Positions 9,987-64,000 of a stretch of DNA of 64,000 nucleotides are shown one piece after another (the first letter of the stretch is position 1; every line of letters begins with the position of its first letter). The notes under the pieces were generated by a model, which was not told the origin of the DNA, searched no databases, and saw only the letters and a list, made by a program, of their open reading frames with translations. This DNA comes from Halorubrum sp. 48-1-W (GTDB lineage: Archaea > Halobacteriota > Halobacteria > Halobacteriales > Haloferacaceae), in contig NZ_QMIM01000015.1 of assembly GCF_003287355.1 (NCBI RefSeq), positions 61,364 through 125,363 on the forward strand, written 5' to 3'. The position numbers and the translations under genes were made by a program.

Positions 9987-10280
9987 TCACTTGCCTGGCT
10001 CGATTCCGTAGTCGGCGGCGAGGTCCCCGAATTCCTCCGGTATCAATTCGGTGCGTTGCTCGAGGAGCTCCTCGAAGTGTGGTGGCGAGAACATGACGAG
10101 CAGCGTTGCAGGTTCCATACTATGATTTATATGTCCGTGGACGGTTCCCCGCGGAATGGTGTGATAACTCCCGGCTGACCATCGGAACACAGATCGGTTG
10201 GTGGAACGGTCACCACTCAATGCGTAGCTTTCATCTACTGCTGTTTCGGGTGAGAATCTGTCTGAAGAAGCGGATTCCAA
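9987..10280 (-). pseudogene. Truncated cupin-domain protein
   Basis: The last 60 or so residues (from about 10170 down) read as a cupin C-terminal half: HTIPRGTVHGHIN, EPATLLVMFSPPHFEELLEQ. The first cupin motif (G-x5-H-x-H-x-E) is missing, and the preceding 35 codons do not resemble a cupin. The gene is probably 5'-truncated or frame-shifted. The gene-free region on its downstream side may have caused the damage. Confidence 0.5.
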
Positions 10281-45941: not shown

Positions 45942-46016
45942 GGGCGCTTAGCTCAGTCTGGATAGAGTGCTTGGCTTCGGACCAAGTTGTCGCGGGTTCA
46001 AATCCTGCAGCGCCCA
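45942..46016 (+). tRNA. tRNA-Arg (anticodon TCG)
   Basis: A 75-nt tRNA. The acceptor stem is GGGCGCT with AGCGCCC and discriminator A. The anticodon arm CTTGG-CTTCGGA-CCAAG gives anticodon TCG. The T-arm is GGGTTCAAATCCTGC. CCA is not encoded. The lower-GC accessory island starts at its 3' end, the usual position of an integrase attachment site. Confidence 0.96.
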
Positions 46017-46370
46017 TCATTCTGCGTGACGGGCAACATTTGGCAGACGGCAGTACGACGCTTATAAAGGAACCCCTCTTCGACCGATCTGATTTCATCA
46101 CGCTGCGGAACGGGGGTCGCCGGTGTCATGCGATTCGCTTACATTTGAATGACACTGTGAGGACATAATACTTGGGTAGAGAGTGTAATTGGTGGCGCGC
46201 GCGAGAGACTTTGGTCGTCTTCCCGCCACTCAACTCAGCAATTCAGTGGGCCTGTCTGAACTGAAGCAAGCCAGAATCCCCTCCGGAATTAACTATCTGA
46301 TCCTTCAACGGGTATAGCAGAGCCCACGTTGCGCTCCGGCCTCGGGTCAACGCAGTCTCTACGAACAAGT
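46017..46370. other. Gene-free boundary region between tRNA-Arg and the island genes
   Basis: No gene was found. The base composition is clearly less GC-rich than before the tRNA. AT-rich promoter-like stretches (AGGACATAATACTTGGG near 46160; GGAATTAACTATCTG near 46286) lie ahead of the HEAT-repeat gene. No second copy of the tRNA 3' end and no integrase is visible in this window, so integration at the tRNA is suspected only. Confidence 0.5.
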
Positions 46371-47633: not shown

Positions 47634-47654
47634 CGAACCGGCCACGAGGACCTG

Positions 47655-49019
47655 TTAGAGGCCACCGATGCTGACGAGTATCCCGAGCAAGACGAGTACG
47701 ACGATAACGACTGTGCCGACGGTGAGCGGCGTGTTTTCCATCGCTTTCTCGTAGAATGGCATGGCTTCGTACTGTTCGCGGAACGCGTCTCGGTTCGCCT
47801 CGTCGTAGAAGTACTTCGTTTTGAACGCGAAGCGCTCGGTCACCGCGCACCCGGTACAGACCGGTGTGTCCTCTAATCGCTCGGTTTTGATGTGCGAGTC
47901 ACAGTTGATACTTCCGCAGTTCGCACAGTACGTGTAGGCGTTGTCGGTGCCTGTTGTGTCGCAGTGGACGCACTGGTGGATTCCGTCTTCGCTCGCTACG
48001 CGTGATGGTCCTGCTGCGAAATACTCGTACGGATACGAGTACTCCTGTAGGTCAGTCGTGTGCCGAACCTGCGGCAGGTACACCGGTTCGATTGACTGTA
48101 CTGAGATGTCGGATCGATTCGGTTCACACGTTTTCGTGTACGTGACGTTGTTGTCTCCGGTGTAGGAGACGGTCGTCGTGTGATGGTCTTTGAGACGGTC
48201 AACGGCCCAGTCTTTGTATTCGGTCTGGGTTTGCCCGAACCGCCGATCTTCAACTGCATCGAACGAACTCTCGAACCGGTCCGCGTCGAGATCAACAGTC
48301 GCGTGGAGGTTCTCCAACACGAGGGTCGAAACATCATCTGACGCAGCTTGGGGGCGTCCGCGTTCGGCGTGGACGACGAACTGGGACCGTTCGTTGATCC
48401 GGTGAATCACGCCAACCGACGTTTCAAAGACTGCGTTCGTATCCGCAGTCACGGCGACGACTGGTCGGAACGTGACGGTGGAATACGGCGCGGGAAGATT
48501 CGATGACTGGATGTTTTCGATGTCTTGGAATGCTTCTTTGACAGGCGCAGTCACCGACGTCGCTGGGTCATGCGGTCGGAGCGTTTCGTCGCACAGGATC
48601 TCGATTCGACCGTTGTAGAGGTCAAGTCCGATTTCGTCAGCGATCTCACGGAGGTCTTCACCGTCAACGAGTTCAATCGGATACGGGTCATCATTCCGCT
48701 GGAGTCGCTGAGCATACTCGAGAGCCGGATTAGTGAATCGACCAGTCGTGACCACCATCCCACGCTTCGGTCCGTCGAACTCGAAGGTCGCAATCGCCGA
48801 GTGAAGTTTCTGCACCACCGGTCGCCCGACAGTTCCTGTGTGCTTACACTCGACAACGATGGCTCGGCGAGTCCCGTCCACGACCTCTTCCATGAGGATG
48901 TCGCGTCCTTCGTCAGCCGTCCGTTCTGCTTGTCGAACGTTCTCGTAGCCGAGATTCCGGAACACATCCTCGATAACGTCCTCGAACTCGAATCCGGAGA
49001 GATCGTCCAGAACAGCCAT
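47655..49019 (-). CDS. Mrr-like PD-(D/E)XK endonuclease with zinc ribbons and membrane anchor
   Basis: A 454-residue protein. The N-terminal restriction-endonuclease domain has E12, D40 (DEGRDILME) and E57-C-K59 (IVVECKH), the complete Mrr/PD-(D/E)XK set. A central region of about 200 residues is unassigned. Zinc-ribbon Cys pairs (CVHCD, CANCG, CTGCA) lie at about 375-425, and a hydrophobic C-terminal helix (about 433-452) looks like a membrane anchor. The ATG 49019 is followed directly by the nuclease fold; the longer frame is noise. A membrane-tied nuclease suggests action on incoming DNA. Confidence 0.87.
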   Translation of the reverse strand: MAVLDDLSGFEFEDVIEDVFRNLGYENVRQAERTADEGRDILMEEVVDGTRRAIVVECKHTGTVGRPVVQKLHSAIATFEFDGPKRGMVVTTGRFTNPALEYAQRLQRNDDPYPIELVDGEDLREIADEIGLDLYNGRIEILCDETLRPHDPATSVTAPVKEAFQDIENIQSSNLPAPYSTVTFRPVVAVTADTNAVFETSVGVIHRINERSQFVVHAERGRPQAASDDVSTLVLENLHATVDLDADRFESSFDAVEDRRFGQTQTEYKDWAVDRLKDHHTTTVSYTGDNNVTYTKTCEPNRSDISVQSIEPVYLPQVRHTTDLQEYSYPYEYFAAGPSRVASEDGIHQCVHCDTTGTDNAYTYCANCGSINCDSHIKTERLEDTPVCTGCAVTERFAFKTKYFYDEANRDAFREQYEAMPFYEKAMENTPLTVGTVVIVVLVLLGILVSIGGL

Positions 49020-49084
49020 TTTTGATGTTTTTATTTGTTGGTTGTTCGTCGTATATACGTTCCCTTGGATTAGTAGCGAAGCAT

Positions 49085-50476
49085 TCAGGACGGCGTGAGT
49101 AGGTCGTCGATGTCCGCTACGCTGAACAGGGACCACGAGTCGTCGAGTTGTGCTTCGAGTCCGTCGACGAACCCGTTTTTCGAGAACAGGGCGAACTGCT
49201 CGTCTCGATCCGACGGTCCCCATCGGACGTTCTCCGCCTTTGCTCGCAGGCTCTCGACGAGGTCTTCCCCGACCGGATCCGTCGTCCACTTACATTCGGC
49301 GAGGAGGACTCGGTCGTCATTCGGTGCCAGCCCGACGATATCGATCTCCTCTTCTCCGTACCACCAGCGACCGACTTCGGAGTACGGTTCGAATGCACCG
49401 CGTCGAATCCCTTCCCAGACGGCTTCTTGGCATACGTCCTCGAACGTGGTTGCGACGTGCGTTGGGAGGTCCGGTTCAATCGTCCCCTCGTACACGATTT
49501 CCGGTGCTTCCTCGATACTGGATCGATGCGGCTCGACATACCGAAACCAGAACCGAAGGAACTCGTCCGCAACTCGGTACCGTGACCGCTTCGATTTCTT
49601 CCCCGAGGCCGTGACTGGGACATCTCGTTCGATGAGGCGGAGGCGGCGAAGTGTCTGTAGGTACTTCGAGAGCGGTCCCGGATCGATCCCTGTTGTGCCG
49701 GAGATCTCGTTCGGTGTCGTATGGCCCAGTGCGACTGCTTCGAGGATGCTCATATACCGGGCTGGGTTTCGGAGCTCGGTGCGCAGGAGGAACTCGGGTT
49801 CATTATACAGTACCGCAGATGGTGATAGGACGTGTGATCGAATGTTCGCCGCGAGCGACTGGTCGTAGTCGAACAGCGTGAGGTACATCGGGGTGCCACC
49901 TGTGACGGCATACGAGCGAATCGCGTCCGTGATGTCGTATGAGATGACCTCTCGTGCCTGTTGAAAGGAGAACGGCGTTACGTCGAGTTGGGCCGTTCGT
50001 CGCCCGTACAGTGGGCTCTCGTGCCCCAGGATCTCTGACTCCATCGTGCTCACGCTCGACCCACAGAGCACCAGCATCGAGTCCGTTCCGTCGAGCGCCT
50101 GGTCAACGAATGCTTGCATGTACGATGGGAGCGAGTCGTTCTCTTCGACGAGATACGGGAACTCGTCGATGACGACGACAAGGTCCTCCCGCTGGAAGTT
50201 CTCCCCGAGGTATTCGAACGCTTCGTCCCAACTGTCGATTCTGGGGACGCGCTCGTCGAAGTAGTCCGCAACTTGGTCGAGGAACTTCTCGCGCTGTCGA
50301 TGCTCGGCTTCCTGCGCGGCAAGGAAGTACATGTGGGGACGATCAGCACAGAATTCTTTGAGGAGTTCCGTTTTCCCGACCCGACGCCGGCCATAGACGA
50401 CAACGAAGTCCGAACCGGGGGACTCCACCGCACCCGTGAGTGTATCGAGTTCTTCCTCCCGGTCGTAGAAGGTCAT
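49085..50476 (-). CDS. STAND-type ATPase with DUF234-like nuclease C terminus
   Basis: A 463-residue archaeal ATPase (MNS clade). Walker A is GRRRVGKT (29-36), Walker B VVVIDEFPYLVEE, sensor VLCGSSVS. A winged helix follows (TTPNEISGTTGIDPGPLSKYL). The C-terminal DUF234-like part has EEEIDIVGLAPNDDRVLLAECKW, a PD-(D/E)XK-like set (D...ECK). Such proteins are common in archaeal mobile regions and their role is unsettled. It lies downstream of the Argonaute operon on the same strand, 154 bp away, with its own AT-rich leader, so it is probably separate. Confidence 0.87.
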   Translation of the reverse strand: MTFYDREEELDTLTGAVESPGSDFVVVYGRRRVGKTELLKEFCADRPHMYFLAAQEAEHRQREKFLDQVADYFDERVPRIDSWDEAFEYLGENFQREDLVVVIDEFPYLVEENDSLPSYMQAFVDQALDGTDSMLVLCGSSVSTMESEILGHESPLYGRRTAQLDVTPFSFQQAREVISYDITDAIRSYAVTGGTPMYLTLFDYDQSLAANIRSHVLSPSAVLYNEPEFLLRTELRNPARYMSILEAVALGHTTPNEISGTTGIDPGPLSKYLQTLRRLRLIERDVPVTASGKKSKRSRYRVADEFLRFWFRYVEPHRSSIEEAPEIVYEGTIEPDLPTHVATTFEDVCQEAVWEGIRRGAFEPYSEVGRWWYGEEEIDIVGLAPNDDRVLLAECKWTTDPVGEDLVESLRAKAENVRWGPSDRDEQFALFSKNGFVDGLEAQLDDSWSLFSVADIDDLLTPS

Positions 50477-50630
50477 ACTTAGGATAATGATTACTGCGAT
50501 AATGACTTAAGAATTCGGGTAGCCACTGGAGTGATTCTCACACTGCAACCAAGACACCGAACCTGACGAGGGATACAGGCGAGATGGGAACTGGATCTAC
50601 GGGAAATTGTTTTCGCGTGGTGTCGACGAT

Positions 50631-53600
50631 TCACTCCTCGAACCCGGGACCGACGGTAAACGAGGCCGGCGCGCAGGGAAGTTGGTTGTGCTGACACCAC
50701 CGGCAGTGCTCACCCGCAGTGTACCGACTGAACGAGAACTCGGCAATATCGTTCATCGACGACGTCACGTCATCTCTGACTGCTTCCAGGTCACTATCGC
50801 TGAACGTTCGGGATTCGACTTTCGGCCCGATGTCACCAACATAAGCGTATCCCGCACGTGCGACAGGCTCATCGTACAGGTCACGGCACGCTAACAGGTA
50901 GATCGGGAGTTGCTTGTCGTCCTCCAAGTCGCGGTGACGTTCGGTCGCCTTGTAGTCGATGACGACCAGTTCGTCGTCAGGCGTCCGGTAGACGGCGTCG
51001 ATGTAGCCGACGAGTTCGTGCCCATCGATAGTGAGTTCGAACTCTCGCTCCGCGTCGATGATCTCGTAACTGGGGAGATCTAACTCGAAGTACCGGTCGA
51101 TGCACTGTTTTGCCGCCGGGAGCGCGTCCTCAGCGCGGCGCTGACTGGCGAGTCGCTCGCAGATCTCGTACCACTCCTCACGACGTTCCACCCCTTGATT
51201 CGCGGCTTGCTCAGCGGTGTCGTGGAACAGCAATCCGATCTCACGTTGCGATACACCTTCCTTCACATCGCCCGTGGCCGCAGTCTCCTGATAGTCAGGG
51301 AACGCGTTGACCACGTAGTCCAGATAGTGACTCCGCGGGCATTCCTCATAGGCCGCCAGCGACGTGTAGCTGTGAGAGAGCGATGGCGACGGTGTCGACG
51401 GGCCAGTCAGCGACCCAACCTGGAGGATTTCCCGCTCGGCTCTCGGTGAAAGACTCCCATCCAGAGTGGCCGTTGCCAGGTTTAGCACACGGTCGCGCGC
51501 AACCCCAACCGCGAGCTCTTCCCCATCGTGCCTGACAGTACCGCCGATATTTCCGACGGTCTCGCTGGCCAGCGTGTTCGTCCAGTCTACTGCGTCGTCC
51601 GGGAGACACTCTTGAACGTCGGTCCAGAGTGGGAGCTGTCCACGCTCCGGCTGCCATGGGATTCGAGATGGGAGGATTTCGTCAACCAGCTCTGAAACAG
51701 CGTTCTCGTCCGCAGCATCGTCGTCTTCCTCGCTGCCACCCTGCAGGACGAGGATGTCCTCGGCTCGCGTGATCCCGACGTGGAACACACGGCGGGTTTC
51801 ACGAGCATCACGCTCGACGAAGTCCTGCGCGAACGCCGCCTCTGCGCCATCCGAGAGCCCCGTTTCGAGTGCGTCGTAGGTACGTGAGCTCGGTGCCCAC
51901 TCGTCGGCTGTAACTTGCGGGGTGAGGACGACCGGGAAGTCTAGGCCTTTGCTCTTGTGGATGGTCATCACGTTGACCGCGTCGTCGGCGACGTCCGGCT
52001 GACTCGTCGGTGTCGAGCCGCTCTCGTCGAACAGGGAGTCGTAGTGTTCGAGCGAGTTGATGAACTCTGGGGTGAGCGGTGGTTGGACAGCACTGTCACC
52101 GTATTGTTCGATGACATCCTCCAGCTGGGCGAGATCCCGGCGCTCCTGTTCGCTGAGGTACCACTCGATGTTCGTGATGTCCGTGAGTTCGCGGTACAGG
52201 TGACTGAGCGACGCCGAGTCACGGATGGCGAGGAGCTCTGTGACGTGTTCGCGGGCTTCTGCGACGCGGTCGGGTTCCTCGAACTCGTCGAGCGGTGTCT
52301 CGCGCAGCGTGTCCACGAGCGAGTCGTCGCCCGCGTTGAGCGTACGGAGATCCGCATCACAGAGCCGGTACCGCATCAGGAGGACGCGATTCCAACTCAC
52401 CTCGTCTTCGGGCCGCGCGAGCGCCTTCAGGTAGGCAGTCACGGTGCCGACACCGACTGATTCCGTCGCCAGATCACCAGCAACCTGGTACGGGATGCCG
52501 GCATCCTCGAACTCCTCGATGACCGGCGTCGCGTGGTCGTTCTTCCGGACAAGCAGGGCTATGTCGCCCGGGTCGTACGCCTCGTCGAGGTTGTCTGCTA
52601 CGCCGCTCAGAAGATTCTGGACGACGGTGCGAAGCTGGGTCGCGCCGTCCGCATCGTCCTCATCCGGCAGTTCGACGGTTGCGACGGTGTCGCCGTCGTA
52701 CGCAGGTTCGTCGACGCGTTTCAGTGTCTTGTGTCGTTCGCGGTGATCGAGCTTCTGAATTGCTTCGTTCGCCAGGTTGAGGATCGGCTGTCGGGACCGG
52801 AAGTTCTCTTCTAACGGTTCATCTTCGAGTGCGGCGAATGCGCGGTCGAGTTCGTCAGTGATGTTGGCGACGTTCGCGCCACGCCACTCGTAGATCGCCT
52901 GATCGTCGTCACCAACGACGAACAGGTTGTCGTCGGTGACGAGGGACGTGACGAGATCGAACTGCAGCCGGTCGGTGTCCTGGAACTCGTCACAGAATAC
53001 GTAGTCCCACCGGTCGGATATCTCTTCGCCGACCGGCGAGTCCATCAGTGCGGCCGTTTCCACGACGAGGCCGTCGAAGTCTATCAGGTTCCGCTCGTCA
53101 AGTTCACGCTCATACGCCGCATAGCCCGCCGTCAGGTCACGGGCCGTGAGACAGTCCGAGAGGAACGAGTCGAGATGGTCCGTGAGTTCGAGGTCGAGAT
53201 CGTCCGGAATCCCCTTCGGCGCACCGTTCGCGTACCCTCCGAGTAGGTACTTCGGAAGCTTGTACGCGTTGTCCGGCAACGCTTGGTCGCCCGCCTCGTG
53301 GGCTTCGAACGCGGATTCGAGCGCGTCACAAAGCTCGATGATGCGGTCGAGGAAGTCGCGTGCGCTGGCTTCGATACCATGGGTACCGAGTGCGTCGCGC
53401 TCAGCGACAAGGTCAGCACGCGCGTCTGGGAGCGAGTCTAGTACGCTCGATACGGACTGGCCACCCAGATGGTCGCTGGCGATGTTCTCGACGCGCTCGC
53501 CGAGGTCGGCGAGTTCGTAGACGCGGTCAGCCGGTCCGAGGAAGGTATCGATCTCGTCGGGCGTGATGCCGCTGCGTTTCATCGACCCGATGAAGTTGAG

Positions 53601-54089
53601 CAGCGTCGACGCGGCCCCTGACACGTACCCGTCGCTCCCGTACACATTGGGTTTCACAGACCGGTATTCGATGTCGTCCAGGACGTCCAGAACGATGGCG
53701 TACTTTTCGGCGTCCGTGGCGACCTCGAAATCCGGATCGATTCCCGCCTCGTACGCGTAGTCGGTGAGGATCTCGTTACAGATGGAGTGGTACGTGTACG
53801 CGTCGATGTCGTACCCGGCCGCGCCGAGTTTCGCGTTGAGTTTCTCACGCATTGAGTCCGCGGCGTTGTTCGTGAACGTCAACGCGAGAATCCGGTCGGG
53901 GGACACGTCTTCCTCGTCGATGAGGTGCTCGATTTTGCGCACCATTGTGAACGTCTTCCCCGTCCCTGCCCCGGCGAGCACGCGCATCGGGTACGCGTCG
54001 GAGTTGATGATCTCTCGTTGCTGGGGCTCCGGCGACACATCTTCCTCCGGAACTGGGAACCACGACGGGTGCTCCGTCTCGTCGCTCAT
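50631..54089 (-). CDS. UvrD/AddA-like helicase with C-terminal Cas4-like nuclease
   Basis: A 1152-residue SF1A helicase-nuclease. Walker A is AGAGTGKT (39-46); motif Ia ALTFTNNAA; motif II FCDEFQDTD; motif III VGDDDQAIYEWRGA; motif V VMTIHKSKGLDFPVV; motif VI HVGITRAED. The C terminus has a PD-(D/E)XK nuclease (YIDAVY ... VIDYK, Lys at 1047) with four Fe-S Cys: C917 (EECPR) and C1129, C1132, C1139. This matches AddA but with an Fe-S nuclease like AddB. It is the last gene of the Argonaute operon; its ATG overlaps the previous stop by 4 bp. Confidence 0.92.
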   Translation of the reverse strand: MSDETEHPSWFPVPEEDVSPEPQQREIINSDAYPMRVLAGAGTGKTFTMVRKIEHLIDEEDVSPDRILALTFTNNAADSMREKLNAKLGAAGYDIDAYTYHSICNEILTDYAYEAGIDPDFEVATDAEKYAIVLDVLDDIEYRSVKPNVYGSDGYVSGAASTLLNFIGSMKRSGITPDEIDTFLGPADRVYELADLGERVENIASDHLGGQSVSSVLDSLPDARADLVAERDALGTHGIEASARDFLDRIIELCDALESAFEAHEAGDQALPDNAYKLPKYLLGGYANGAPKGIPDDLDLELTDHLDSFLSDCLTARDLTAGYAAYERELDERNLIDFDGLVVETAALMDSPVGEEISDRWDYVFCDEFQDTDRLQFDLVTSLVTDDNLFVVGDDDQAIYEWRGANVANITDELDRAFAALEDEPLEENFRSRQPILNLANEAIQKLDHRERHKTLKRVDEPAYDGDTVATVELPDEDDADGATQLRTVVQNLLSGVADNLDEAYDPGDIALLVRKNDHATPVIEEFEDAGIPYQVAGDLATESVGVGTVTAYLKALARPEDEVSWNRVLLMRYRLCDADLRTLNAGDDSLVDTLRETPLDEFEEPDRVAEAREHVTELLAIRDSASLSHLYRELTDITNIEWYLSEQERRDLAQLEDVIEQYGDSAVQPPLTPEFINSLEHYDSLFDESGSTPTSQPDVADDAVNVMTIHKSKGLDFPVVLTPQVTADEWAPSSRTYDALETGLSDGAEAAFAQDFVERDARETRRVFHVGITRAEDILVLQGGSEEDDDAADENAVSELVDEILPSRIPWQPERGQLPLWTDVQECLPDDAVDWTNTLASETVGNIGGTVRHDGEELAVGVARDRVLNLATATLDGSLSPRAEREILQVGSLTGPSTPSPSLSHSYTSLAAYEECPRSHYLDYVVNAFPDYQETAATGDVKEGVSQREIGLLFHDTAEQAANQGVERREEWYEICERLASQRRAEDALPAAKQCIDRYFELDLPSYEIIDAEREFELTIDGHELVGYIDAVYRTPDDELVVIDYKATERHRDLEDDKQLPIYLLACRDLYDEPVARAGYAYVGDIGPKVESRTFSDSDLEAVRDDVTSSMNDIAEFSFSRYTAGEHCRWCQHNQLPCAPASFTVGPGFEE

Positions 54090-54991
54090 CGTCGCACCTC
54101 CGTCGACAAGCGGTCAGCACACATCTCTCGATAGTCACAGTCCGGGCACGCCTCCTCAGTAATAAGGTCGAACGGCTCCGGCTCGTAGGCCTCACCTGTG
54201 ATGCCGTCGTGCGCGGCACGGATGAGCTCCCAGATCGTGTCGTGGTGCTCCGCGTAGATCTCCGTGGTTTCTCGTGGATATCCACGAGCAGACACCTCGT
54301 ACCCGGTTGGAGTGCTCTCGAACGACGTGCTGTTGAGCAAGCCGTAGAAACTGAACCGAACCGTCATCCCGTCCTCGTAGAACGGTTCGTTCTTCACACC
54401 CTCGATGTACGTCGCCGTCTGGAACGCGTTCCGCACACGCTTTGGCTCGTGCGCCTCTCCGTCGCGGTGCTCGCCGAGATACTCGGCTGTCCCGGACGAA
54501 AGGACACCGCTCGTGTTCCGCTTGTAATCGAATACGTGGAGCCCCTCGTCCGTCCGAACGACGTTGTCAGCTTTCCCGTGGAGGCCGCGGCCATCGCGTT
54601 CGCATTCCACCCAGCACTCCGTGGCGACCGAGTGACGCGCGTGCTCGATCCCGTCACCACCATCCGGGTCAAAGAACGCCTCGACGGCAGCCCGGTTCTC
54701 ACGGCGCTGGTACTCCTGATGCGCGTCGGATTCGTAGTCGTCGGAGTTGCTGTGTTCCGCCCACTTCGCCGCAAAAACATCCATCGCGCGGTCGTGAATC
54801 GTCTCTGCATCAGCATCACGGTCAGTCGCATCACACACGTCCTCGATAGTCTCGTGGTAGATCGTCCCTTGGTTGAGATACAGCTCCGTACGATCCGGTG
54901 TGTTCACATCCTGTACGTACCGGTAATCGTACAACCGCGGACACGTCGCGTAGTTCGCCAACCGCGACGGGGAGAGCGATTCCGAGCTCAT
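54086..54991 (-). CDS. Cas4/AddB-type Fe-S PD-(D/E)XK nuclease
   Basis: A 301-residue nuclease. Catalytic residues are H46 (GTIYHETIE), D142 (HGKADNVV), D155 and K157 (FDYKRN). The Fe-S ligands are C17 (YATCPRL) and C282, C285, C291 (ACPDCDYREMC). This is the complete Cas4/AddB-nuclease pattern, and the size fits Cas4-like nucleases that act as 5'-3' exonucleases. No cas1/cas2 or CRISPR is present. It sits between the AddB-like and AddA-like genes with 4-bp overlaps on both sides, so it probably is the split-off nuclease of AddB. Confidence 0.93.
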   Translation of the reverse strand: MSSESLSPSRLANYATCPRLYDYRYVQDVNTPDRTELYLNQGTIYHETIEDVCDATDRDADAETIHDRAMDVFAAKWAEHSNSDDYESDAHQEYQRRENRAAVEAFFDPDGGDGIEHARHSVATECWVECERDGRGLHGKADNVVRTDEGLHVFDYKRNTSGVLSSGTAEYLGEHRDGEAHEPKRVRNAFQTATYIEGVKNEPFYEDGMTVRFSFYGLLNSTSFESTPTGYEVSARGYPRETTEIYAEHHDTIWELIRAAHDGITGEAYEPEPFDLITEEACPDCDYREMCADRLSTEVRR

Positions 54992-57045
54992 CGCCGCACC
55001 TCCCCGGTAGCGAACTCGACACGCGCACGCAACGCCTTGCGGAGCTCCTCTCCACGCGCCCCGCTCTTATCGAGCACGTCCTGAATCTCCCCGAGTTCCG
55101 CTTCGACCTCATCGAGCGACACCGTCACGTCCTGACTGTTCGCGCGCCGCACCTCCGCAAGCGCGTCGTCGACCCGCGACAGCAGGTACTGCTCCGCCGC
55201 TTGCTCGCTCGTAACCTGTGGCTCATCGGCCTCGGTCACCCACGGAAGATCCGCATACGCCGCTGTGAGAAACCGCGACGCCTGCGCGCGCTCTTCGAGC
55301 GCCGTGTCTTCGTACTCGTAGAGACAACAGTAGAGCCGCTCCGCCGCCGCACCCGCACCGACAGCCAACCGTCGCCGCGCGTGCTCCGCGTGGTACTGCG
55401 CGAACGGTCGTCCTGACGCCGTCGACGTCGTCGGGAACGTCGCATCCACATCTGCTCCATCCAGTTCCGTAACACCAGGGTAGTCCAGCATCGACGCGAC
55501 TCGCTCGCTCGGGAACAACCGTGTCAGGAACGGGTCGCCCGGGTACTCGCTGTCGACGAGATTCACGAGGAACACCGCGCGGAACGACTCGTTCTTAATC
55601 GCTTGCAAGTGATCGACGCGGACCCCTCCGTCGAGGTCCGTCGCACTCGTCTGATTCTGCTGTGGTGCGTACTCGTGAGCGCGTTCGAGCATCTGCTTGA
55701 ACGACTCCCACGTCGCATCCACGAACTCGGTCTCTTCGAGGAACTCGGCCATCCGGAACGCCCGTCGGACGTTCCCGAACTGCGCCCGTGCATCCAACGG
55801 GGCCGCCCGTTCCGCGATCCGCTCTTTCAACCCAGCGTCCGTCGCCCACCAGTGAATCGCGTCTCCGAGGCCGTCCGTCTCGCTGACTCGGTCCAAGCGG
55901 TCCGTATCGAGTTCCGGACCGTGGTCGGGTCCATCATCTTCATCGTCAGCGAGATACCGAACAGCCGAGAGGAGTTCCCGAATCGCAGGATCGTCACCGA
56001 ACCCGGTGACGGTTGTCGATTCCGTCGGAATCCCGGTGCCTTCGAACGCTTCGATAGCGTCCGTCACAGCACTCCCGCTTTGCTTCGTGGCGACAGCAAT
56101 GTCGTCGTACCTCCAGTTCGGCTGCGCGACGAGGTCTTCGATCTCGTTCGCAATCTCAGCGAGCTGTTCGTCACCGGAGTCTGTAGCAAGGACGGACACC
56201 GACCCAGCTCCCGGATCTTCCGGGACCGTTTCGTCGGCGAAATAGGCTGCCGTCGCGGCTGGTCGCGTCGACGGCGTCCCCGATGCCCCACGTCGAGACT
56301 CGCTGAACGAGACGTAGTCCGTAACAGGTCCGGTCTCGACCCAGGTGCGGCGCACACTCGCATTCTCCTCGGCAACACAGACGAGCTCGCAGTCTCCCGC
56401 GAGCGCGTCGAGATACGCGCGATCAAGCGGGAAGAACTCCTCGAACTCGACTGCGAGCACCGCGTCGAAATCAACGACATCGTCGCGGGCATCCCCAGTG
56501 AGGACATCGAGCGCTTCCGAGATGAGTTGCCCGCGCTCCATGTGCCCGTGCTCGGCGAGCCACTCGTGGAACGCGTCAAGCGCAGCCGTGATGTCACGGA
56601 GTTCCGGAGTATCGTCAGGCGTGACCATCTGCCAGGAGATCGTGCCCATCACGGCATCCACGTCCTCAATGAACGACGGTTGCGCAGACGCCCGTTGGAG
56701 GTACTCCGTGTCCCACTCGTAGTCTTCGAGGAACCGGTACAGGAGTTCCCGCCGTAGGGCGTCGGAGAGAATGACGCGGTCATCGGTCTGGTTGAGGACA
56801 TCGGTCGCGTGCACCACCGACGATGTCACGTATGGGGTCGCCGCACCCGGCAGTTCCTCACCTAACGCTTCACGGAACGTATCTGCGCTCGTCGGCGCAC
56901 CGGTGATGACGAGCACATCCTCAGAATCGTGCTCGTCGAGAAGCATTCGGTATTCGTTTCGCGCTGTCCGTTCGACGTTTTCGCCCCCGAACGGTACCCT
57001 GACTAATGTCCCGTTGAACTGCCGGTGAGATGAGTGATCAGACAT
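54988..57045 (-). CDS. AddB-like helicase homologue without Walker A
   Basis: A 685-residue protein. Its C-terminal half has SF1-like features of AddB/RecC: VRVDHLQAIKNESFRAVFLV near 465-495, followed by NLVDSEYPGDPFLTR, and RRRLAVGAGAAAERLYCCLYE. The N terminus lacks a P loop (RVPFGGENVERTARNEYR stands where GxxxxGKT would be), so it probably does not hydrolyse ATP. The nuclease domain that AddB usually carries is in the next gene. It would act as the scaffold or recognition arm (RecC/AddB role). It starts 5 bp after the stop of the PLD-ATPase gene. Confidence 0.78.
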   Translation of the reverse strand: MSDHSSHRQFNGTLVRVPFGGENVERTARNEYRMLLDEHDSEDVLVITGAPTSADTFREALGEELPGAATPYVTSSVVHATDVLNQTDDRVILSDALRRELLYRFLEDYEWDTEYLQRASAQPSFIEDVDAVMGTISWQMVTPDDTPELRDITAALDAFHEWLAEHGHMERGQLISEALDVLTGDARDDVVDFDAVLAVEFEEFFPLDRAYLDALAGDCELVCVAEENASVRRTWVETGPVTDYVSFSESRRGASGTPSTRPAATAAYFADETVPEDPGAGSVSVLATDSGDEQLAEIANEIEDLVAQPNWRYDDIAVATKQSGSAVTDAIEAFEGTGIPTESTTVTGFGDDPAIRELLSAVRYLADDEDDGPDHGPELDTDRLDRVSETDGLGDAIHWWATDAGLKERIAERAAPLDARAQFGNVRRAFRMAEFLEETEFVDATWESFKQMLERAHEYAPQQNQTSATDLDGGVRVDHLQAIKNESFRAVFLVNLVDSEYPGDPFLTRLFPSERVASMLDYPGVTELDGADVDATFPTTSTASGRPFAQYHAEHARRRLAVGAGAAAERLYCCLYEYEDTALEERAQASRFLTAAYADLPWVTEADEPQVTSEQAAEQYLLSRVDDALAEVRRANSQDVTVSLDEVEAELGEIQDVLDKSGARGEELRKALRARVEFATGEVRR

Positions 57046-57050
57046 ATCTA

Positions 57051-59171
57051 TTACCCTCGGACGAGCCGCGTGACCCGAGACAGCACACCGGTGTTGTCAG
57101 CGGCTGTCTCGGTATCGCGTCGTGCATCTTCAATCACACTGGGCTCATCAATCCAATTCTGGAACCTGTTCGCGCTTTCAAACTGAACCGCCGGCCCGTA
57201 AATACCCGCCCGGATATGGGCTGGCGTGGCCTTCTGGAACTCCCAGCATTGCTGCTGGTCCAGATGTGCCGAGAAATCAGCGACAATCCGCCCGTCATCC
57301 TTGAAGTCGAGTTCACACAGCCCGTCGGACAGCGCACTGATCCACTTCCGACGCCCCGGATCGTGCTTCTGCTCGGCGGGTGTCTCTAGCGGCACGTACT
57401 CCGGCGGTTCCTTCTCGGCATACGCGTACAGCTCCGCGAACACGTCCCGAGCATCCGCGAGCCGATCCGACTGGTCCGGAAGCGAGATATCCCGCTGCAA
57501 GAACAGGTGAGCGAACCACGGGAACAGGTTACAACTGTCTGCCTGCCCCGCGATTTGCGCGGCGGCTTCGCGTTCGTCCTTCTTCAGTTCGGAGAAGTTA
57601 ACGTTGAAATCCAGTGTCTTCATCCGAGTGCGGAGTTCGGATTTCGGCTTCGTGGAATCGTTCGAGGAAAAAATGAACGTCGGCATCTGGATAGACCCAT
57701 CCCACTTCCCCTCCCAGTACGACTTGATGATGTCCCGGTCGATTTTCGACTTTGCCACGTCGTCAACGATGTACGGGAAAACGGTGTCCGACGCACGAGC
57801 TCGCTCGATGTTGTTTTTGACGAAGTCGTCCCCGGTCGTGACTTCCTGCACGTACCCGTTCGAGATGAGACGCGTCCCGAACCGCAGGAACATGCCTTTC
57901 CCGCTGTCATTGTCACCGTGGAGGAACAGGAACGGTAGATCCTTGTCCAGCTCTGCGGACTCGTATTCCGCGTAGTGATGGGCACAGTAGTTAGCGAACG
58001 GAGCCCAGCAGAAGTAGATAATTCCCTCGTAGAAATGTGCCCGCGTCTCCTTTGGCGTTCGCGTTTCACCGAACTCGCCGACAGTCTCGATGTACTGCTC
58101 GATCAGGTCGAGTGCGTCAGCGACTTCCTGCGGATCGTCCAGCAGTGATGCTGTTAGTTCAAGGACGGAGTCGTCAACCCGCAACCCGACCGTCTTCTCC
58201 TCCCTGTCGACGTTGAGGTCTGGATACCCTGTGAAGGTCTCTTTGTACCGCGCGATGCCGGCGGGTGTCGCTACGATTTCGCCGTCATTGATCCGGATGT
58301 TATTGGCAGACAGCGTGTCGTCCAGATTCGAGATTGCGTCTTCGAGGCCCTGTGGGGAGAGGCGGACACGCTTGTCCGGACTGATTTCGGTTGGATCGGT
58401 GTCTGTATCTTCAGCGGCGAACACCGCTTTCTCTGCTTCTTCGGCGTCGGTGACGACGTTGTACGTATTGACCTGGTCGTCGTCAACTGCTTCGTCGAGC
58501 CGGGCGTTCAGCTCGGCGACCGGGTCGTCACTGAACTCGTCGCCACCCAGCCAGATATCGTAGATCTTCGCCTCTTCCTCTGCCGTTTCGGCGTCCTCAA
58601 TCTCCTCGGTAAGATCCTCCATGAACGGCGTCGCGTAGTCCTTGTGGAACGCGTACAGCCGTTCGAACCACTCGTCGACAGGCGTGTCCCCATCGGTACG
58701 CCAGGCGATGTTGACGTTGGTTTGCTTGCTCCCCTGCCAGGCCTGCTTGGAGAGGTTTGCCGACCCACAGATGAGTGTACGAGACCCGTCCTGGTTCTCG
58801 ACGATGTAGAGTTTCGTGTGAAGCAAGACGCGCGCGGAATCGACAGTGTGGATGAGCAGATCACCGTCTTGGCGCAGCGATTCCAGTTGCGCGGCGATTT
58901 TCTTTGCGTTGCTCGTGTTCTTCAGCGAGCGCCGGTAGTCGTCGTGCTGGTTGTCCCCGACGATGACCTCCAGTGAGTCCACTGCGAGATCCTGATTCTG
59001 AAACATCTTGTAGATGAACGCCGGGGACTGACTGTACGTGACGCAGTAGACGTGCTGGGCGTCACCGAAGTAGTTCAGGAAACTATCCCATGATTTGTCG
59101 GCAGCCATCTCCAGATCGGCGGTGCTGCCGTCATCGAACTCGACCGTTGCTTCGAACTCAGTCTTAGTCAT
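57051..59171 (-). CDS. PLD-family HKD nuclease fused to a P-loop ATPase/helicase-like domain
   Basis: A 706-residue two-part protein. The N-terminal part has one HKD motif: H118-x-K120 (LLHTKLYIVE) and GSANLS (136-141), so active PLD nuclease would need a dimer. After an acidic linker (about 185-260) comes a P-loop domain: Walker A HGDNDSGKGMF (K425), Walker B VFPYIVDDV (about 464-472), sensor FIFSSND (about 499-505) and a possible Arg finger in ELRTRMK. This resembles SF3/D5-type or primase-helicase ATPases. I do not know this fusion as a named family. It lies second in the Argonaute operon, 63 bp after the Argonaute stop. Confidence 0.85.
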   Translation of the reverse strand: MTKTEFEATVEFDDGSTADLEMAADKSWDSFLNYFGDAQHVYCVTYSQSPAFIYKMFQNQDLAVDSLEVIVGDNQHDDYRRSLKNTSNAKKIAAQLESLRQDGDLLIHTVDSARVLLHTKLYIVENQDGSRTLICGSANLSKQAWQGSKQTNVNIAWRTDGDTPVDEWFERLYAFHKDYATPFMEDLTEEIEDAETAEEEAKIYDIWLGGDEFSDDPVAELNARLDEAVDDDQVNTYNVVTDAEEAEKAVFAAEDTDTDPTEISPDKRVRLSPQGLEDAISNLDDTLSANNIRINDGEIVATPAGIARYKETFTGYPDLNVDREEKTVGLRVDDSVLELTASLLDDPQEVADALDLIEQYIETVGEFGETRTPKETRAHFYEGIIYFCWAPFANYCAHHYAEYESAELDKDLPFLFLHGDNDSGKGMFLRFGTRLISNGYVQEVTTGDDFVKNNIERARASDTVFPYIVDDVAKSKIDRDIIKSYWEGKWDGSIQMPTFIFSSNDSTKPKSELRTRMKTLDFNVNFSELKKDEREAAAQIAGQADSCNLFPWFAHLFLQRDISLPDQSDRLADARDVFAELYAYAEKEPPEYVPLETPAEQKHDPGRRKWISALSDGLCELDFKDDGRIVADFSAHLDQQQCWEFQKATPAHIRAGIYGPAVQFESANRFQNWIDEPSVIEDARRDTETAADNTGVLSRVTRLVRG

Positions 59172-59234
59172 GCGAGGGTCACCGGTGTGTTGACGGGTAC
59201 GTGAGTGGTTGCGTGGGGCTGTGCTGGCGCATGG

Positions 59235-61922
59235 TCAGATGTACGGGACGCCGCGGATGACGCTGCCTTTGGTGAGGTAGCCCTTCATGGCGAAATCGGC
59301 GCACTTGTCGGCGTAGTACGTGGTGATGGGGAGCCGGGTGGACCGGCTCAGCGACCCGACGTGTGCTTCCGACAGCCAGTAGGTTTGCTCCGCGAGCGTG
59401 TCGAGATCCGTTGACCCGTGGCGTTTCACGATCTGCAGCGGTCGCGGCGTGCCAGGGCTGCCCTCCTTCCCGCCGGTCGTGGTCAGGTAGGAGTGCTCGC
59501 CGTTGTGGACGTGGAAGGCGACGCCTTTGTCCGCGATATCGAATCGTGATTTCGATTCGTCGTACGCGGCGATGCGGGGGTTCCCGGATTTCCGGATCTC
59601 GACGAGGTCGAACCGCTGGATGAGATCCCGGGCTTTGTCGAGACGGTTGATGAGGTTCTCGACGTCAAGGTAGAACTTCCCGTCACGATGAATCACGATG
59701 TGCCGCGGTGGCCGGCCTTCCTCTTCGGCGAAGATTTCGAGGACATGTTTGATGACGTTCGCCACGTCGTCCTCGTCGAACGTCTCACCAGCCTGCTTCG
59801 TGACGGCTTCGGACGCGAGGATGGTTCCGTCGGCCATGATGACGTTCGCAGCCGCACCGAGGTGTTGCTTGGTCGCGTGGTCGTAGGTCACGTCGAGCCC
59901 GACGAACGCGTCAACGCCCCCGGGAACGTCGTCGATCCGCCACGGCACCCCGCCCGCTTTCCCGATAAGGGACGAGCAGATATTCCCGCCGTAGTTGTCG
60001 TTACCGAGGTTGTCGACGGCGATCATCTGACTCGGCACGCCGAGTTGTCCGAGCCGACGCTTAAACTCGGGATACGGATCGTCGTAGTCCGCTTCTGCAG
60101 CCTCGTCTTCGTCCGGCACGACGATCAGTGCCGCATCGTAGTCACTCGCTTTCTGCGCGGGCTGGGAGTAGTGGAACTCCGAGCCGAGTTCGTAGGTGTC
60201 GCGGTCGAACGCTGTCGGGCTCGCATCGTAGTCTGCGAGCTTGTTGAGCAGCGATAGCACGTATGGCCGTGCGTCATCCTCGTCGTCTTCGGGATACAGC
60301 GCGATGATGTCGAACGACTCTGGTGACTTGTACACGCCGTAGCCGTTCCGTTCCAGCCCGCCAGCCCCGTAGTACCCTGTCTGTCCGTCACCGAACCGCA
60401 GGTTCGGGATATTCCGCGTCTTGTGTTCTCGGTACCCGGCGTTCGTGGGTTGGGGGGTTGGGTCGAAGTTGAAGTACGGTGTCGGACCGAGCAGGTCGAC
60501 GAACGACGTGACGACGTTGAACCGTTCCTCGGGTTTCATCCGGCTCTCATTGTGGATGACGTCCAGGAACGCGTCATCGACGCGACCCAACTGCTCGAAC
60601 GTCGGGATAACCTTACAGTATTTCAAGAGCTGCGGGAAGATCGAATCCTCGCCGCTCCCGTACTGTAGATCAGCGATGATCGGATCGCCGGCTCGCATCG
60701 AGTCGATGACGTCCTGATCGACGTGTTTCTCGTGATACTCTGACATCGGGACGCCCGGCCCGTCCAGCACATCATCGTAGTCCATGTCGATGATCTCCTG
60801 AACCGTCGCCGTGCGCGCACTGTCGTACAGATCCGTATCGTGTTCAACGGTCACATCGGCGATGTCCTGTCCGCGTTGTACCCACTCGGCGGCGGAGAAC
60901 GTCGATTCCAGATGATACGCGACGTTCACACCGCAAATCACGGTCCCGTCAGCATCGACGCGAACCCGGCACTTGTACTTCCGATAGGCTTCGAACAACC
61001 CGCTGTTCGCGGTTCGCTGCGGGGTGGGCTCGATGATCGAATCAATCCCCGACACCTCGAAGCGACCGGCAACGGCTCGTTTCACGTCCTGCTTGACGAA
61101 CTCTTGGAGCGGCCCGTCATCCGTGTACGAACGCGCTTCCAGTGTTGTTTCGCCCTGATGTACTGGCTTGACCGTATACCCGTGAATTGAGATCGGATCG
61201 TTGAGTTTCTCGGTCGCGTAGATACGCCGCCGCGACGCATCAGCCGTCGTCACGGGGCTCCTGATGCGTGACTGGTAGTAGTTCGCCGCCTTCGCCGAGA
61301 ACCCCTCAATCCCGTTCGTGAAATCGTCAGGGTCGATCCCGCCACTCCCAGTTGCCTGGAGTTCGTACTCGTGGACTGTGAGCTTCGGTAATTTTCCGAG
61401 TTCGAACTGCAGCAGGTAGTTCCCGTCTGAGAGCGGCTGTTGATGCAGGAGCTCGCCGCCTCCATCAGCCGTCGGCCGCGAATTACCATCCACCTCGCTT
61501 CCGCGAACGAACTCTCCAGTATCGGACGCATCCGATGTTGCCGCGGCAGTCCCACTCGACTCTTTCCCCTCTGACTGCTTGACTGGTTCTTCCGCGGGGT
61601 CACTTTCGGCTAACTCGTCGTTCTCGGCAGCGGCTGGAGCGTCGTCTAACAGCGTGACAGTGAGGTCATACCCCGGGTTGAGTTGCATCTCCCCCTGGAA
61701 CTCGTTCCCGACGACGTTCTCTAGGAAATACCACTCCCCGATCTGCCAGTCGAACTCCGCGACATCGTTGTTGTGGAATACTGTCAGATCTACCGCTGCG
61801 CCGTCGACATCCTCCAATTGGATTTTCCGAGCGATGGCATCGTGCTCCCACTCGTCAATCCCCGTGACGCGCAGCGCGATGTCGATCTCTTTCCCATCCT
61901 CGATATCAGCCTTGACTGCCAT
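59235..61922 (-). CDS. Prokaryotic Argonaute, long, catalytically intact
   Basis: An 895-residue pAgo, like NgAgo of Natronobacterium (887 residues) in layout. Residues 1-95 form an OB-like domain (DIALRVTGI, FHNNDVAEFDWQIGEWYFLE), followed by an acidic Ser/Asp linker (about 95-155), N/PAZ region, MID (SQMIAVDNLG, then LIGKAGGVPW) and PIWI. The catalytic tetrad is D677 (FVGLDVT), E713 (QAGETFDE), D747 (VIHRDGK) and D872 (TTYYADK). It should cut a guide-complementary strand. First gene of the operon, with TATA at about -28 suggesting a leaderless transcript. Confidence 0.94.
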   Translation of the reverse strand: MAVKADIEDGKEIDIALRVTGIDEWEHDAIARKIQLEDVDGAAVDLTVFHNNDVAEFDWQIGEWYFLENVVGNEFQGEMQLNPGYDLTVTLLDDAPAAAENDELAESDPAEEPVKQSEGKESSGTAAATSDASDTGEFVRGSEVDGNSRPTADGGGELLHQQPLSDGNYLLQFELGKLPKLTVHEYELQATGSGGIDPDDFTNGIEGFSAKAANYYQSRIRSPVTTADASRRRIYATEKLNDPISIHGYTVKPVHQGETTLEARSYTDDGPLQEFVKQDVKRAVAGRFEVSGIDSIIEPTPQRTANSGLFEAYRKYKCRVRVDADGTVICGVNVAYHLESTFSAAEWVQRGQDIADVTVEHDTDLYDSARTATVQEIIDMDYDDVLDGPGVPMSEYHEKHVDQDVIDSMRAGDPIIADLQYGSGEDSIFPQLLKYCKVIPTFEQLGRVDDAFLDVIHNESRMKPEERFNVVTSFVDLLGPTPYFNFDPTPQPTNAGYREHKTRNIPNLRFGDGQTGYYGAGGLERNGYGVYKSPESFDIIALYPEDDEDDARPYVLSLLNKLADYDASPTAFDRDTYELGSEFHYSQPAQKASDYDAALIVVPDEDEAAEADYDDPYPEFKRRLGQLGVPSQMIAVDNLGNDNYGGNICSSLIGKAGGVPWRIDDVPGGVDAFVGLDVTYDHATKQHLGAAANVIMADGTILASEAVTKQAGETFDEDDVANVIKHVLEIFAEEEGRPPRHIVIHRDGKFYLDVENLINRLDKARDLIQRFDLVEIRKSGNPRIAAYDESKSRFDIADKGVAFHVHNGEHSYLTTTGGKEGSPGTPRPLQIVKRHGSTDLDTLAEQTYWLSEAHVGSLSRSTRLPITTYYADKCADFAMKGYLTKGSVIRGVPYI

Positions 61923-61945
61923 CTACGCCGACCAACGGACGCCCA

Positions 61946-61954
61946 GAATAAATA
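61946..61954 (-). promoter_or_regulatory. TATA box of the Argonaute operon
   Basis: ACCTATTTATTCTG on the minus strand, centred about 28 nt before the Argonaute ATG, fits a leaderless haloarchaeal promoter. The remaining 220 bp up to the divergent ATPase gene hold no gene. Confidence 0.55.
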
Positions 61955-62147
61955 GGTTTCCACTAGACGAATCTCAAACACGGTAACTCAATTTTAGAGG
62001 TAACACACTCCAAGAAAACACGCCTGGCGCGCCAATAAGGCACTTCTGAGATAGCATCGAACGACGCCGAGGGCTGGAAATCTGCCACACTGGGCTTGAT
62101 TGACAGCAGGATTACAGTAGAATCTGAATAGCGACATCGAGATGCGT

Positions 62148-62155
62148 GAATATTT
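62148..62155 (+). promoter_or_regulatory. TATA box of the divergent AAA ATPase gene
   Basis: GAATATTT, centred about 29 nt before ATG 62181. A second AT-rich patch (CCTATAATAATC, 62163-62174) is too close to the ATG to be the TATA box of a leaderless transcript. Confidence 0.45.
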
Positions 62156-62180
62156 GTACTAGCCTATAATAATCGATTGT

Positions 62181-63857
62181 ATGCTTGGGACAGGGAGCGC
62201 AGAAGAGTTCATTGACGACGCTGAACACCACAACCAGTGGTGGAGTGACGGCACGTCTCCAGAACTTTCGCAAGCCACAGACCTTACTCCTCGATCTGAT
62301 TTCCACCGTGTTCTCAAAACGACGAATACCCACTACACTGACGATGTCGAGAGTCTCGTCTACGCAATTCACGGCCAGACCGGCATCGGTAAAACCACCC
62401 TTCTCCACCAACTCGTCGCAGCGCTCCTCAACACGACCGACTTCCCACACCAAAACACAGACCTCGAACTCACTTCTGCAATCGAACCGCGGCAAATCCT
62501 CTACATCCCCTTAGAAGACTCCCTATATCAACTCGAACGCGCAGGCGATGATATCAAACGCCTCAACCAGGTCATCGACTACTTCCAGACCCACGTCGCA
62601 CCCCGGCAAGGACAAAAGTTCATCCTCCTTGACGATGTCCAAGCCCTTGACCTCGACGAGGATCAGAAAGCGGAGCTACTTGATCTCGTTGACGAGAACA
62701 CGTACGTATTCCTGACCGGAATCGTCGAATCTCAAGTCGATCTCTCCACTACCGAATCCTCCGACACCGTCGAGGGATTCGAACTGTGGCCGCTCCTCCC
62801 GATGAAATTCATCGACACCGCTCAAATCGGCGCAGGTCTCGGCGTCGATCTCGATGACGAATTCCGAACCCGACTCGAACAATACCAATCATCAGACTTA
62901 GACGGGCCATCGCCGATTAAGACGATTCGAGCCGGGCTGTCCAGAAGAGATTCCGAAACCAGTCTCGACACTGCTGTTGAAACACTCTCAGAACTCTGCT
63001 TCGATACCTTCGAAGCGGACGACCGAGACAATCTTCACGACGCCGCGCGCGCATACCTGCGCACAGGTGGTACTCTCCATCAGACAGACGACCCATCGAT
63101 CCGGAACGAACTCTCCAAATCCCACTTCCTCCTTTTTCTCTACAAGGAACTCGCCAAGTACCGATCAATCCAACAACCCGAAAACCTCCACCGCCTCAGT
63201 TCCATCGCCGCCACCAACGCCGGTGAAGAACTCCAGTACACTGATCTCAGCGATCAAGTCGGCGTCGACAGGCGAACCGTCGACAACTACCTCGACGTAC
63301 TCGATGAAGGTATCGCTGTCACCGAATCACAAGACTACTCCCTGCGACGCTATCGCCGCACCCGATTGTACCTCCGTAACCCACGTCACCTTGTCCTCCT
63401 CTCACAACGACAGGAACACCACGGCTTCGAAGGCTACGAACAGCAAGACACCCTCAACCACGAATTCGAGTACAAACTCGCCCGTACCGTCGCTTTCGAC
63501 CACGCCAAACGCCTCGCATACACCGTCGGAGCATACGACGTCGAATACACCGAAACCGAATCCGGCCTCGTTGACTACATCCTCCACCGCAACGGGGATG
63601 TCCTTCCATTCATCTTCTCCTACCATCCACACACTGGCAACGCCGAAACAATTGCCAAAGACTTCGACCCCAACTCCGGCCAACACACCGAATCCGACAG
63701 TGAAGACCTCCAAGACTTGGATTACCAGGCACCGTACCGGTTCGTCATCACCGACAGCCTTCCGAAGAAAGTTAGAGAAAGTGGGTCATTAGTTATTGAG
63801 TACGATGATGTCCGTATTTGTTATCTCCCTTTCTGGCTATTTTTACTTATCTGCTGA
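62181..63857 (+). CDS. AAA-family ATPase with DUF4143-like C terminus
   Basis: A 558-residue protein. Walker A is GQTGIGKT (65-72), Walker B FILLDDVQAL (about 148-157), sensor VFLTGIV. A winged helix at about 350-385 (LQYTDLSDQVGVDRRTVDNYL) is followed by a C-terminal domain (FEYKLARTVAFDHAKRL, DVEYTETESGLVDYIL) that resembles the DUF4143/PD-(D/E)XK-like tail of AAA_14 proteins. Its codon use is the least GC-biased of the window (many AAC/CAC, Asn and Thr rich). It is divergent from the Argonaute; shared regulation is possible. Confidence 0.83.
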   Translation: MLGTGSAEEFIDDAEHHNQWWSDGTSPELSQATDLTPRSDFHRVLKTTNTHYTDDVESLVYAIHGQTGIGKTTLLHQLVAALLNTTDFPHQNTDLELTSAIEPRQILYIPLEDSLYQLERAGDDIKRLNQVIDYFQTHVAPRQGQKFILLDDVQALDLDEDQKAELLDLVDENTYVFLTGIVESQVDLSTTESSDTVEGFELWPLLPMKFIDTAQIGAGLGVDLDDEFRTRLEQYQSSDLDGPSPIKTIRAGLSRRDSETSLDTAVETLSELCFDTFEADDRDNLHDAARAYLRTGGTLHQTDDPSIRNELSKSHFLLFLYKELAKYRSIQQPENLHRLSSIAATNAGEELQYTDLSDQVGVDRRTVDNYLDVLDEGIAVTESQDYSLRRYRRTRLYLRNPRHLVLLSQRQEHHGFEGYEQQDTLNHEFEYKLARTVAFDHAKRLAYTVGAYDVEYTETESGLVDYILHRNGDVLPFIFSYHPHTGNAETIAKDFDPNSGQHTESDSEDLQDLDYQAPYRFVITDSLPKKVRESGSLVIEYDDVRICYLPFWLFLLIC

Positions 63858-64000
63858 CATTTGTAGGATTTAGTACGCCCTCAGAATTACGCACACCGAG
63901 TATTATGTTGGCAGCTGATGGAGGGCAAAGTACTTATTCCGAATGGGCTCTGGTGAATCGCCAGAAGGCGTTTGATTTCACTGGTTTACGGCTCGCTTGA
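63858..64000. other. Window end, AT-rich, no supported gene
   Basis: AT-rich sequence after the ATPase stop. A 60-codon plus-strand frame overlaps the end of the ATPase gene and is not supported. Too little is visible to say what follows. Confidence 0.5.

Follow-up and report, generated by a model that had tools for sequence, protein, structure and literature searches.

When an Argonaute (Ago) is encoded in one block with a helicase-nuclease of the AddAB type, does that machine supply the guides with which the Ago finds its targets? In the cases reported, as far as the available portions of the literature go, the in vivo source of the DNA guides of prokaryotic Agos is tied to the RecBCD or AddAB enzyme of the host. 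According to available passages of PMC10269773, RecBCD shapes the guide pattern of CbAgo, SeAgo and LrAgo, and AddAB co-precipitated with TtAgo, but RecBCD is reported not to be required for guide biogenesis; these findings in part support and in part limit the help from RecBCD or AddAB in guide production that the original prediction for this locus had invoked. These systems (PMC10269773 and PMC9040764, both in part) resemble the locus described here in that an Ago is tied to RecBCD/AddAB-type end processing, but they rely on an end processor that belongs to the host, whereas at this locus the Ago block itself encodes one. In the case of Synechococcus elongatus, available passages of PMC10653904 report that losing ago, a cas4-like gene, uvrD or recJ eases plasmid transfer or maintenance; SeAgo, the Cas4-like nuclease and UvrD each limit foreign plasmids and are gene types also present here, but those passages do not present the genes as a single operon and name no AddB-like or PLD partner. 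Cas4, PLD and UvrD-type genes are also listed among the neighbours of prokaryotic Agos (Makarova 2009; Ryazansky 2018; both in part).

The window, that is, the whole 64,000-nucleotide stretch of Halorubrum DNA that was analysed, covering positions 61364-125363 of contig C69, contains five genes in one block, all on the minus strand, and translation of its open reading frames bore out both this layout and the predicted junctions of 63, 5, -4 and -4 bp between the Ago, PLD, AddB-like, 'Cas4-like' and AddA-like genes. The Ago (59235..61922, minus strand) is a long protein of 895 residues matching Pfam Piwi, with its PIWI domain at residues 612-878 (59289..60089, minus strand, converted from residue numbers; Piwi E 7.9e-21). 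Its catalytic tetrad is complete (D677/E713/D747/D872), and this DEDD set is kept in all 14 close Agos and in 47 of 50 Ago rows. Clostridial Agos are its nearest solved sequences, and residues 7-84 at the N terminus give a weak OB/replication-factor-A-like match (PRK07217, E 8.8e-4). The next gene (57051..59171, minus strand) encodes a 706-residue PLD-family nuclease (PLDc_2, E 2.6e-7) with a C-terminal P-loop ATPase, carrying H118-K120, G136-S137-N139, a Walker motif at 419-425 ending in GK425, and DD470-471. Its structure model (79.8) matches two PLD endonucleases, SauUSI and the R protein of NgoAVII, as well as phosphatidylserine synthase, Nuc and Zucchini of the mouse; since the SauUSI match has an rmsd of 23.5, the structure comparison supports the PLD domain only, and the ATPase part matched no solved fold at E <= 0.001.

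The Ago-PLD part of the block is a known APAP-type pair and not new. APAP, as described in available sections of Cheng et al. 2024 (PMC11442185), combines a haloarchaeal long-A Argonaute with the PLD protein AgaP; ago was found in 63 of 656 haloarchaeal species and AgaP in 28. The same sections report that AgaP alone is toxic to the host and is held in check by the Ago, that AgaP is needed for plasmid restriction and the Ago for immunity to a ssDNA virus, and that the pair functions in a host given those two genes only; helicases appear there solely in the statement that some pairs lie near 'a helicase-encoding gene'. The window and the Natrinema pellirubrum system share a long Ago with a complete tetrad beside a full-length PLD-ATPase homologue (Ago 34% and AgaP 32% identical to the window proteins, the latter over 719 columns), both pairs have an AAA_14 ATPase nearby (64% identity), and the 63-bp Ago-PLD gap falls inside the published range of 31-64 bp (PMC11442185, in part). 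They differ in that no AddAB-type trio occurs in the 34.5 kb around the N. pellirubrum pair, and in that the window PLD reads HxK(x)15GSxN where N. pellirubrum AgaP reads HxK(x)49GSxN; the split motif, in which HxK and GSxN stand about 50 residues apart, is absent from the window protein, which has 15 residues there. The view that no system with this exact gene set had been described agrees with our search of the open-licence literature (subscription papers and preprints lying outside its scope), which found no paper on the set. The existence of described Ago-PLD pairs is one of two points beyond that prediction, the other being a divergent ATPase gene.

That gene (62181..63857, plus strand; 558 residues) encodes an AAA_14/DUF4143 ATPase and starts 258 bp from the Ago in the opposite direction. 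Among the 381 genomes surveyed, 34 have an AAA_14 match, and in 28 of these the ATPase lies near an Ago and/or the trio; it belongs to the Ago-PLD-trio unit as its sixth gene. The surroundings differ in composition from the rest of the window, with a G+C fraction of 0.53-0.63 from about 46 kb to the end versus mostly 0.65-0.72 before. A tRNA-Arg gene (45942-46016) sits at the edge of the low-G+C stretch (46001-64000), a possible island border, and a second low-G+C patch (8001-10000, 0.547) lies inside the high-G+C stretch. Downstream of the operon, on the same strand, lie genes for an Mrr-type restriction nuclease and an ATPase_2/DUF234 protein (47655-50476), which are found again downstream of other trios, whether or not an Ago accompanies them.

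The last three genes look like a split AddAB, a reading drawn from sequence comparison and, to our knowledge of the surveyed literature, new here. The AddA-like protein (50631..54089, minus strand; 1152 residues) joins a UvrD helicase (2.8e-61) to a C-terminal PD-(D/E)XK nuclease (PDDEXK_1, 3e-25; residues 907-1135, converting to 50685..51371, minus strand). Its nearest solved sequences are PcrA/UvrD, followed by AdnB-type proteins, AddA, GajB and RecB, and its catalytic residues K45, D367/E368 and D1031/D1045/K1047 are present in 14 of 14 sequences. The AddB-like protein (54988..57045, minus strand; 685 residues), a degenerate SF1-helicase-like chain, matches nothing in Pfam and AddB only weakly (TIGR02773, E 0.0017); its alignment to AddA is good (96.5), that to intact AddB weak (60.2), and its structure model (mean pLDDT 46.3) was left out of fold claims. 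The third protein (54086..54991, minus strand; 301 residues), a PD-(D/E)XK nuclease (PDDEXK_1, E 8.8e-23), had been called Cas4-like; it reaches 34.6 bits against a Cas4 equivalog cut-off of 65. The part of an intact haloarchaeal AddB to which it aligns is residues 728-1072 (probability 97.8), and it also aligns to the AddA nuclease (96.8). Its conserved cysteines are C17, C282, C285 and C291, and both it and the AddA-like protein carry four cysteines in an AddB-like C...CxxC(x5-6)C arrangement, which we take to be the iron-sulphur pattern of AddB. The protein thus appears to be the split-off nuclease half of AddB, and it is on this reading that the three genes would make up a split AddAB. Of the predicted families, Ago, PLD and AddA-like were retained, AddB-like keeps a weak match, and Cas4-like gives way to AddB nuclease.

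The trio resembles bacterial AddAB and mycobacterial AdnAB in its UvrD-type helicase with C-terminal PD-(D/E)XK domain, its helicase-like second subunit and its four-cysteine nuclease. It differs in that the AddB function would be spread over two genes rather than one chain, in that both nucleases have four cysteines, and in equivalog scores far below the cut-offs (16.1 versus 903.7 bits for AddB; 127.6 versus 707.65 bits for AddA). Elsewhere in the window genome, neither AddA (E <= 1e-20) nor AddB (E <= 1e-10) has a further homologue, which counts in favour of the coupled defence proposed below. A role for the small nuclease in CRISPR adaptation was rejected, the Cas4 cut-off being missed and the AddB nuclease fitting better; the Cas4-neighbouring long Agos (Makarova et al. 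2009, in part) are alike in setting an active long Ago by a Cas4-related PD-(D/E)XK nuclease, but the window protein differs from that nuclease on the same grounds. Gabija was likewise rejected: the AddA-like protein matches GajB models (E 2e-66) in the helicase only, and no GajA appeared among the best 25 PADLOC matches per protein for the ten window proteins scanned. In a second trio clade (L028, L029, L034, L035, L108, L110, L112-L115), a gene of about 375 residues with only a weak DNA_pol_B_exo1 match lies on the opposite strand between AddA and the PLD/Ago genes.

The reading we favour, at a confidence just short of even, is that the six-gene unit is an anti-plasmid or antiviral cassette in which the split AddAB degrades the DNA ends of the invader and hands guides to the Ago. 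The Ago and/or the PLD protein would cut or nick the invader, as the homologous APAP pair suggests; the AddAB-like complex would load on the resulting ends, unwind and degrade them, as its enzyme family leads one to expect; single-stranded fragments of guide size may, by precedent, be loaded by the Ago; and the guided Ago would cut further copies, so that cutting and end-degradation would feed each other. The Ago would keep the PLD protein in check, as it reportedly does with AgaP, and in Ago-less relatives some other protein of the unit would do so. Guide production for the Ago is plausible, with general end-degradation of invader DNA as an almost equal rival.

The distribution of the genes bears on both. 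Surveying 381 genomes drawn from the class, with E-value cut-offs of 1e-20 for Ago, 1e-10 for AddB and PLD and 1e-40 for AAA_14, and calling genes in the surveyed loci with our own codon-usage script, we obtained matches to Ago in 51, AddB in 136 and PLD in 90. An Ago of at least 85% identity occurs in 15 genomes of six families (including G317, with a truncated Ago, and G289, with Ago fragments), and all 15 also have PLD and AddB, one set being counted across a contig break; the gene set recurs, and coupled defence gains support because the close Ago is always accompanied in this way. The AddB at 76% identity or more occurs in 35 genomes, of which 15 have this Ago, 4 have a PLD remnant abutting AddB and 16 have neither. 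In a scan of named genomes, whose loci overlap in species with the class survey and are not independent of it, the trio genes are all present at least in part at 34 of 34 AddB loci, with an Ago upstream in 9, an Ago of 49-52% identity downstream in 2 (Halosimplex), and, at L023, an Ago match of 36% identity some 7.5 kb upstream. In a phylum-wide draw of 148 genomes, the 7 AddB matches all fall within the window's own order. The genes form a recurrent cassette, which would have spread horizontally in haloarchaea. A virus-borne cassette was rejected as far as searched, neither an Ago (12 pattern stretches) nor an AddB relative (78) being confirmed in viral_contigs.

More distant trios extend this picture to loci that have the PLD gene and no Ago. 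Among 11 survey loci with 57-64% AddB, a PLD gene follows the trio in 6 (L108, L110, L112-L115); these are plasmid loci carrying the AAA_14 ATPase, the trio and a PLD with a split AgaP-type motif (44-48 residues), and in 5 of the 6 genomes the class survey gave no Ago match anywhere. Of 16 AddB records in the plasmid collection, 7 have a same-strand PLD within about 10 kb, and at least 1 of these 7 has an adjacent Ago, among the best 20 of 45 Ago records. Given the toxicity of AgaP on its own to the published host, loci without the Ago may depend on some other protein of the unit to hold the PLD protein back. At G289 (L074), an intact 706-residue PLD gene and the trio stand beside a degenerate Ago, although toxicity is reported for AgaP alone.

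Several observations speak against the favoured reading: 20 of the 35 close-trio genomes are without this Ago, the published Ago-AgaP pair worked with those two genes only (PMC11442185, in part), RecBCD is reported to be dispensable for guide biogenesis (PMC10269773, in part), the cassette genes recombine separately, and 11 of 51 Ago loci have no end-processing module within 10 kb. The trio may instead be a general haloarchaeal RecBCD-like mop-up module that degrades linear or cut invader DNA on behalf of any nuclease system in its island, Ago-PLD in this case and BREX-5 or restriction systems in others, passing no guides to the Ago, with the operon serving co-expression; we regard this as a serious alternative, at clearly less than even probability. 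Besides the 20 genomes without this Ago and the occurrence of trios beside McrB-like, PDDEXK_4, methylase or sacsin-like genes, it draws on the AddB tree (63 loci), on which the presence of Ago needs 10 changes. Against it stand the 5-bp junction and the overlaps, which are kept across families, and the choice of machines beside other Agos.

Haloarchaeal Agos generally adjoin DNA-end-processing genes, of several partner types, which is the second observation that is new here. The neighbours include Mre11-like, Rad50-like, NurA, HerA, SF1 helicase and intact AddAB genes, and a DEAD/MZB helicase with an RNase H-like exonuclease (TIGR03817 match), presumably MrfAB. Counting a module as near when its own profile exceeds 80 bits within 10 kb, we found one in 40 of 51 Ago genomes, and none at the remaining 11 loci, versus 1 of 40 same-contig control windows, hand-chosen at round-number positions on Ago contigs (Fisher p 1.6e-14, treating loci as independent although they are related). 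The 40 include G179, resting on a 247-residue fragment, and the partial cases G123, G126 and G237, and omit a true case, G261, whose trio lies beyond a contig break; the positive control, L213, has MrfAB, and L177 has a Rad50-like match of 52 bits, below the line. On a 50-row Ago tree with partner labels set by hand (G289 dropped as too short), partner type changes at least 12 times, and 14 times with three rows added and one, G316, removed. The Rad50 linked to the Agos of one clade is unlike the usual haloarchaeal Rad50 (152 of 1000 bits). In a distant Ago clade (L152, L153, L155-L166; cluster c4, 14 members), a DUF2797 gene lies directly upstream of the Ago. That other haloarchaeal Agos have paired repeatedly with end-processing machines of other types lends support to coupled defence.

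A comparison with BREX-5 separates the AddAB-type machines from the rest. The BREX-5 set comprised 5 of 19 PglZ genomes, picked among those with neither the close trio nor the Ago, a choice that biases the set against trio matches, together with the 12 top-ranked of 22 plasmid records, not counting one that already figured among the five genomes. By the rule used for the Agos, 10 of the 17 loci have an AddAB-type gene within 10 kb, versus 21 of 51 Ago loci (p 0.26); for all machines together the counts are 40 of 51 and 10 of 17 (p 0.13, not significant), and for machines other than AddAB 22 of 51 and 1 of 17 (p 0.006), all Fisher values treating related loci as independent. AddAB-type pairs or split trios were seen at L214, L217, L219-L221, L224, L225 and L227-L229; two of these ten carry trios, one with the AAA_14 ATPase, and an AddAB-type pair or trio is a possible partner of BREX-5. 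From these counts AddAB-type machines emerge as general defence neighbours, and, as they are at least as common near BREX-5 as near Ago, proximity is no proof of a guide-making role. This favours the mop-up alternative, whereas Mre11-Rad50, HerA-NurA and MrfAB speak against it, the preference for them being Ago's in this sample. The prediction that the AddAB machine is dedicated to the Ago has to be abandoned on the BREX-5 loci and the trios without this Ago, and the proposed module joining guide production to target cutting survives in its recurrent gene set and complete Ago tetrad, without the exclusive link.

Conservation within the cassette weighs on a further, improbable alternative, in which the Ago-PLD-ATPase genes and the trio have no functional link and are separate island passengers, joined once and copied as a block. 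Both parts reside in defence islands, and the 14 trio-linked Agos of the tree form one clade, as this alternative would have it. Synonymous divergence is also unequal between the genes of one pair (dS between the window and G024 is 0.24 for the Ago and 0.82 for the nuclease); by this comparison the cassette genes recombine separately, and the operon is therefore a mosaic kept in one layout. Yet the junctions are exactly 63, 5, -4 and -4 bp in 9 of the 12 operons measured, at dS up to about 1, the exceptions being G378 (called start), G337 (broken PLD) and G039 (54 bp). Further points against the absence of a link are a second Ago-trio pairing in another gene order, the Agos of the two Halosimplex genomes lying outside the window's Ago clade, the PLD gene beside 6 of the 11 more distant trios with no Ago nearby, and the partner changes among Agos, most of which are still partnered. 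All six genes are under purifying selection, with dN/dS of 0.035-0.19 between the window and 11 operons (dS 0.18-1.23), and nuclease and helicase residues are invariant in the 13 to 15 sequences per protein; together with the recurring junctions, these invariant catalytic residues set the block apart from a chance arrangement. It is very unlikely that the unit works in replication or repair, for instance in resolving stalled forks, in termination or in recombination, and not in defence: its partner genes are repair-type enzymes, and available passages of PMC10269773 tie TtAgo, SeAgo and LrAgo to termination and decatenation, but the Ago is patchily present (51 of 381 genomes), the unit lies in a low-GC island with defence neighbours, and the homologous Ago-AgaP pair has published anti-plasmid and antiviral activity (PMC11442185, in part).

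Beyond the coupled-defence reading lies a broader and rather doubtful proposal, that haloarchaeal Agos carry their own guide factory and have repeatedly swapped unrelated end-processing machines: split AddAB, intact AddAB, Mre11-Rad50 with HerA-NurA, an SF1 helicase with Mre11-Rad50, and MrfAB. The window would be the most compact form, its PLD protein trimming guides in the manner of Zucchini in piRNA biogenesis. For haloarchaeal defence at large, the AddAB-type genes beside BREX-5 point to end-degrading helicase-nucleases as a common layer. For the Agos themselves, having an AddAB-type machine in the same block means that guide biogenesis can be separated genetically, and the unrelated end-processing machines beside most haloarchaeal Agos are natural replicates for the question of how guides are made.
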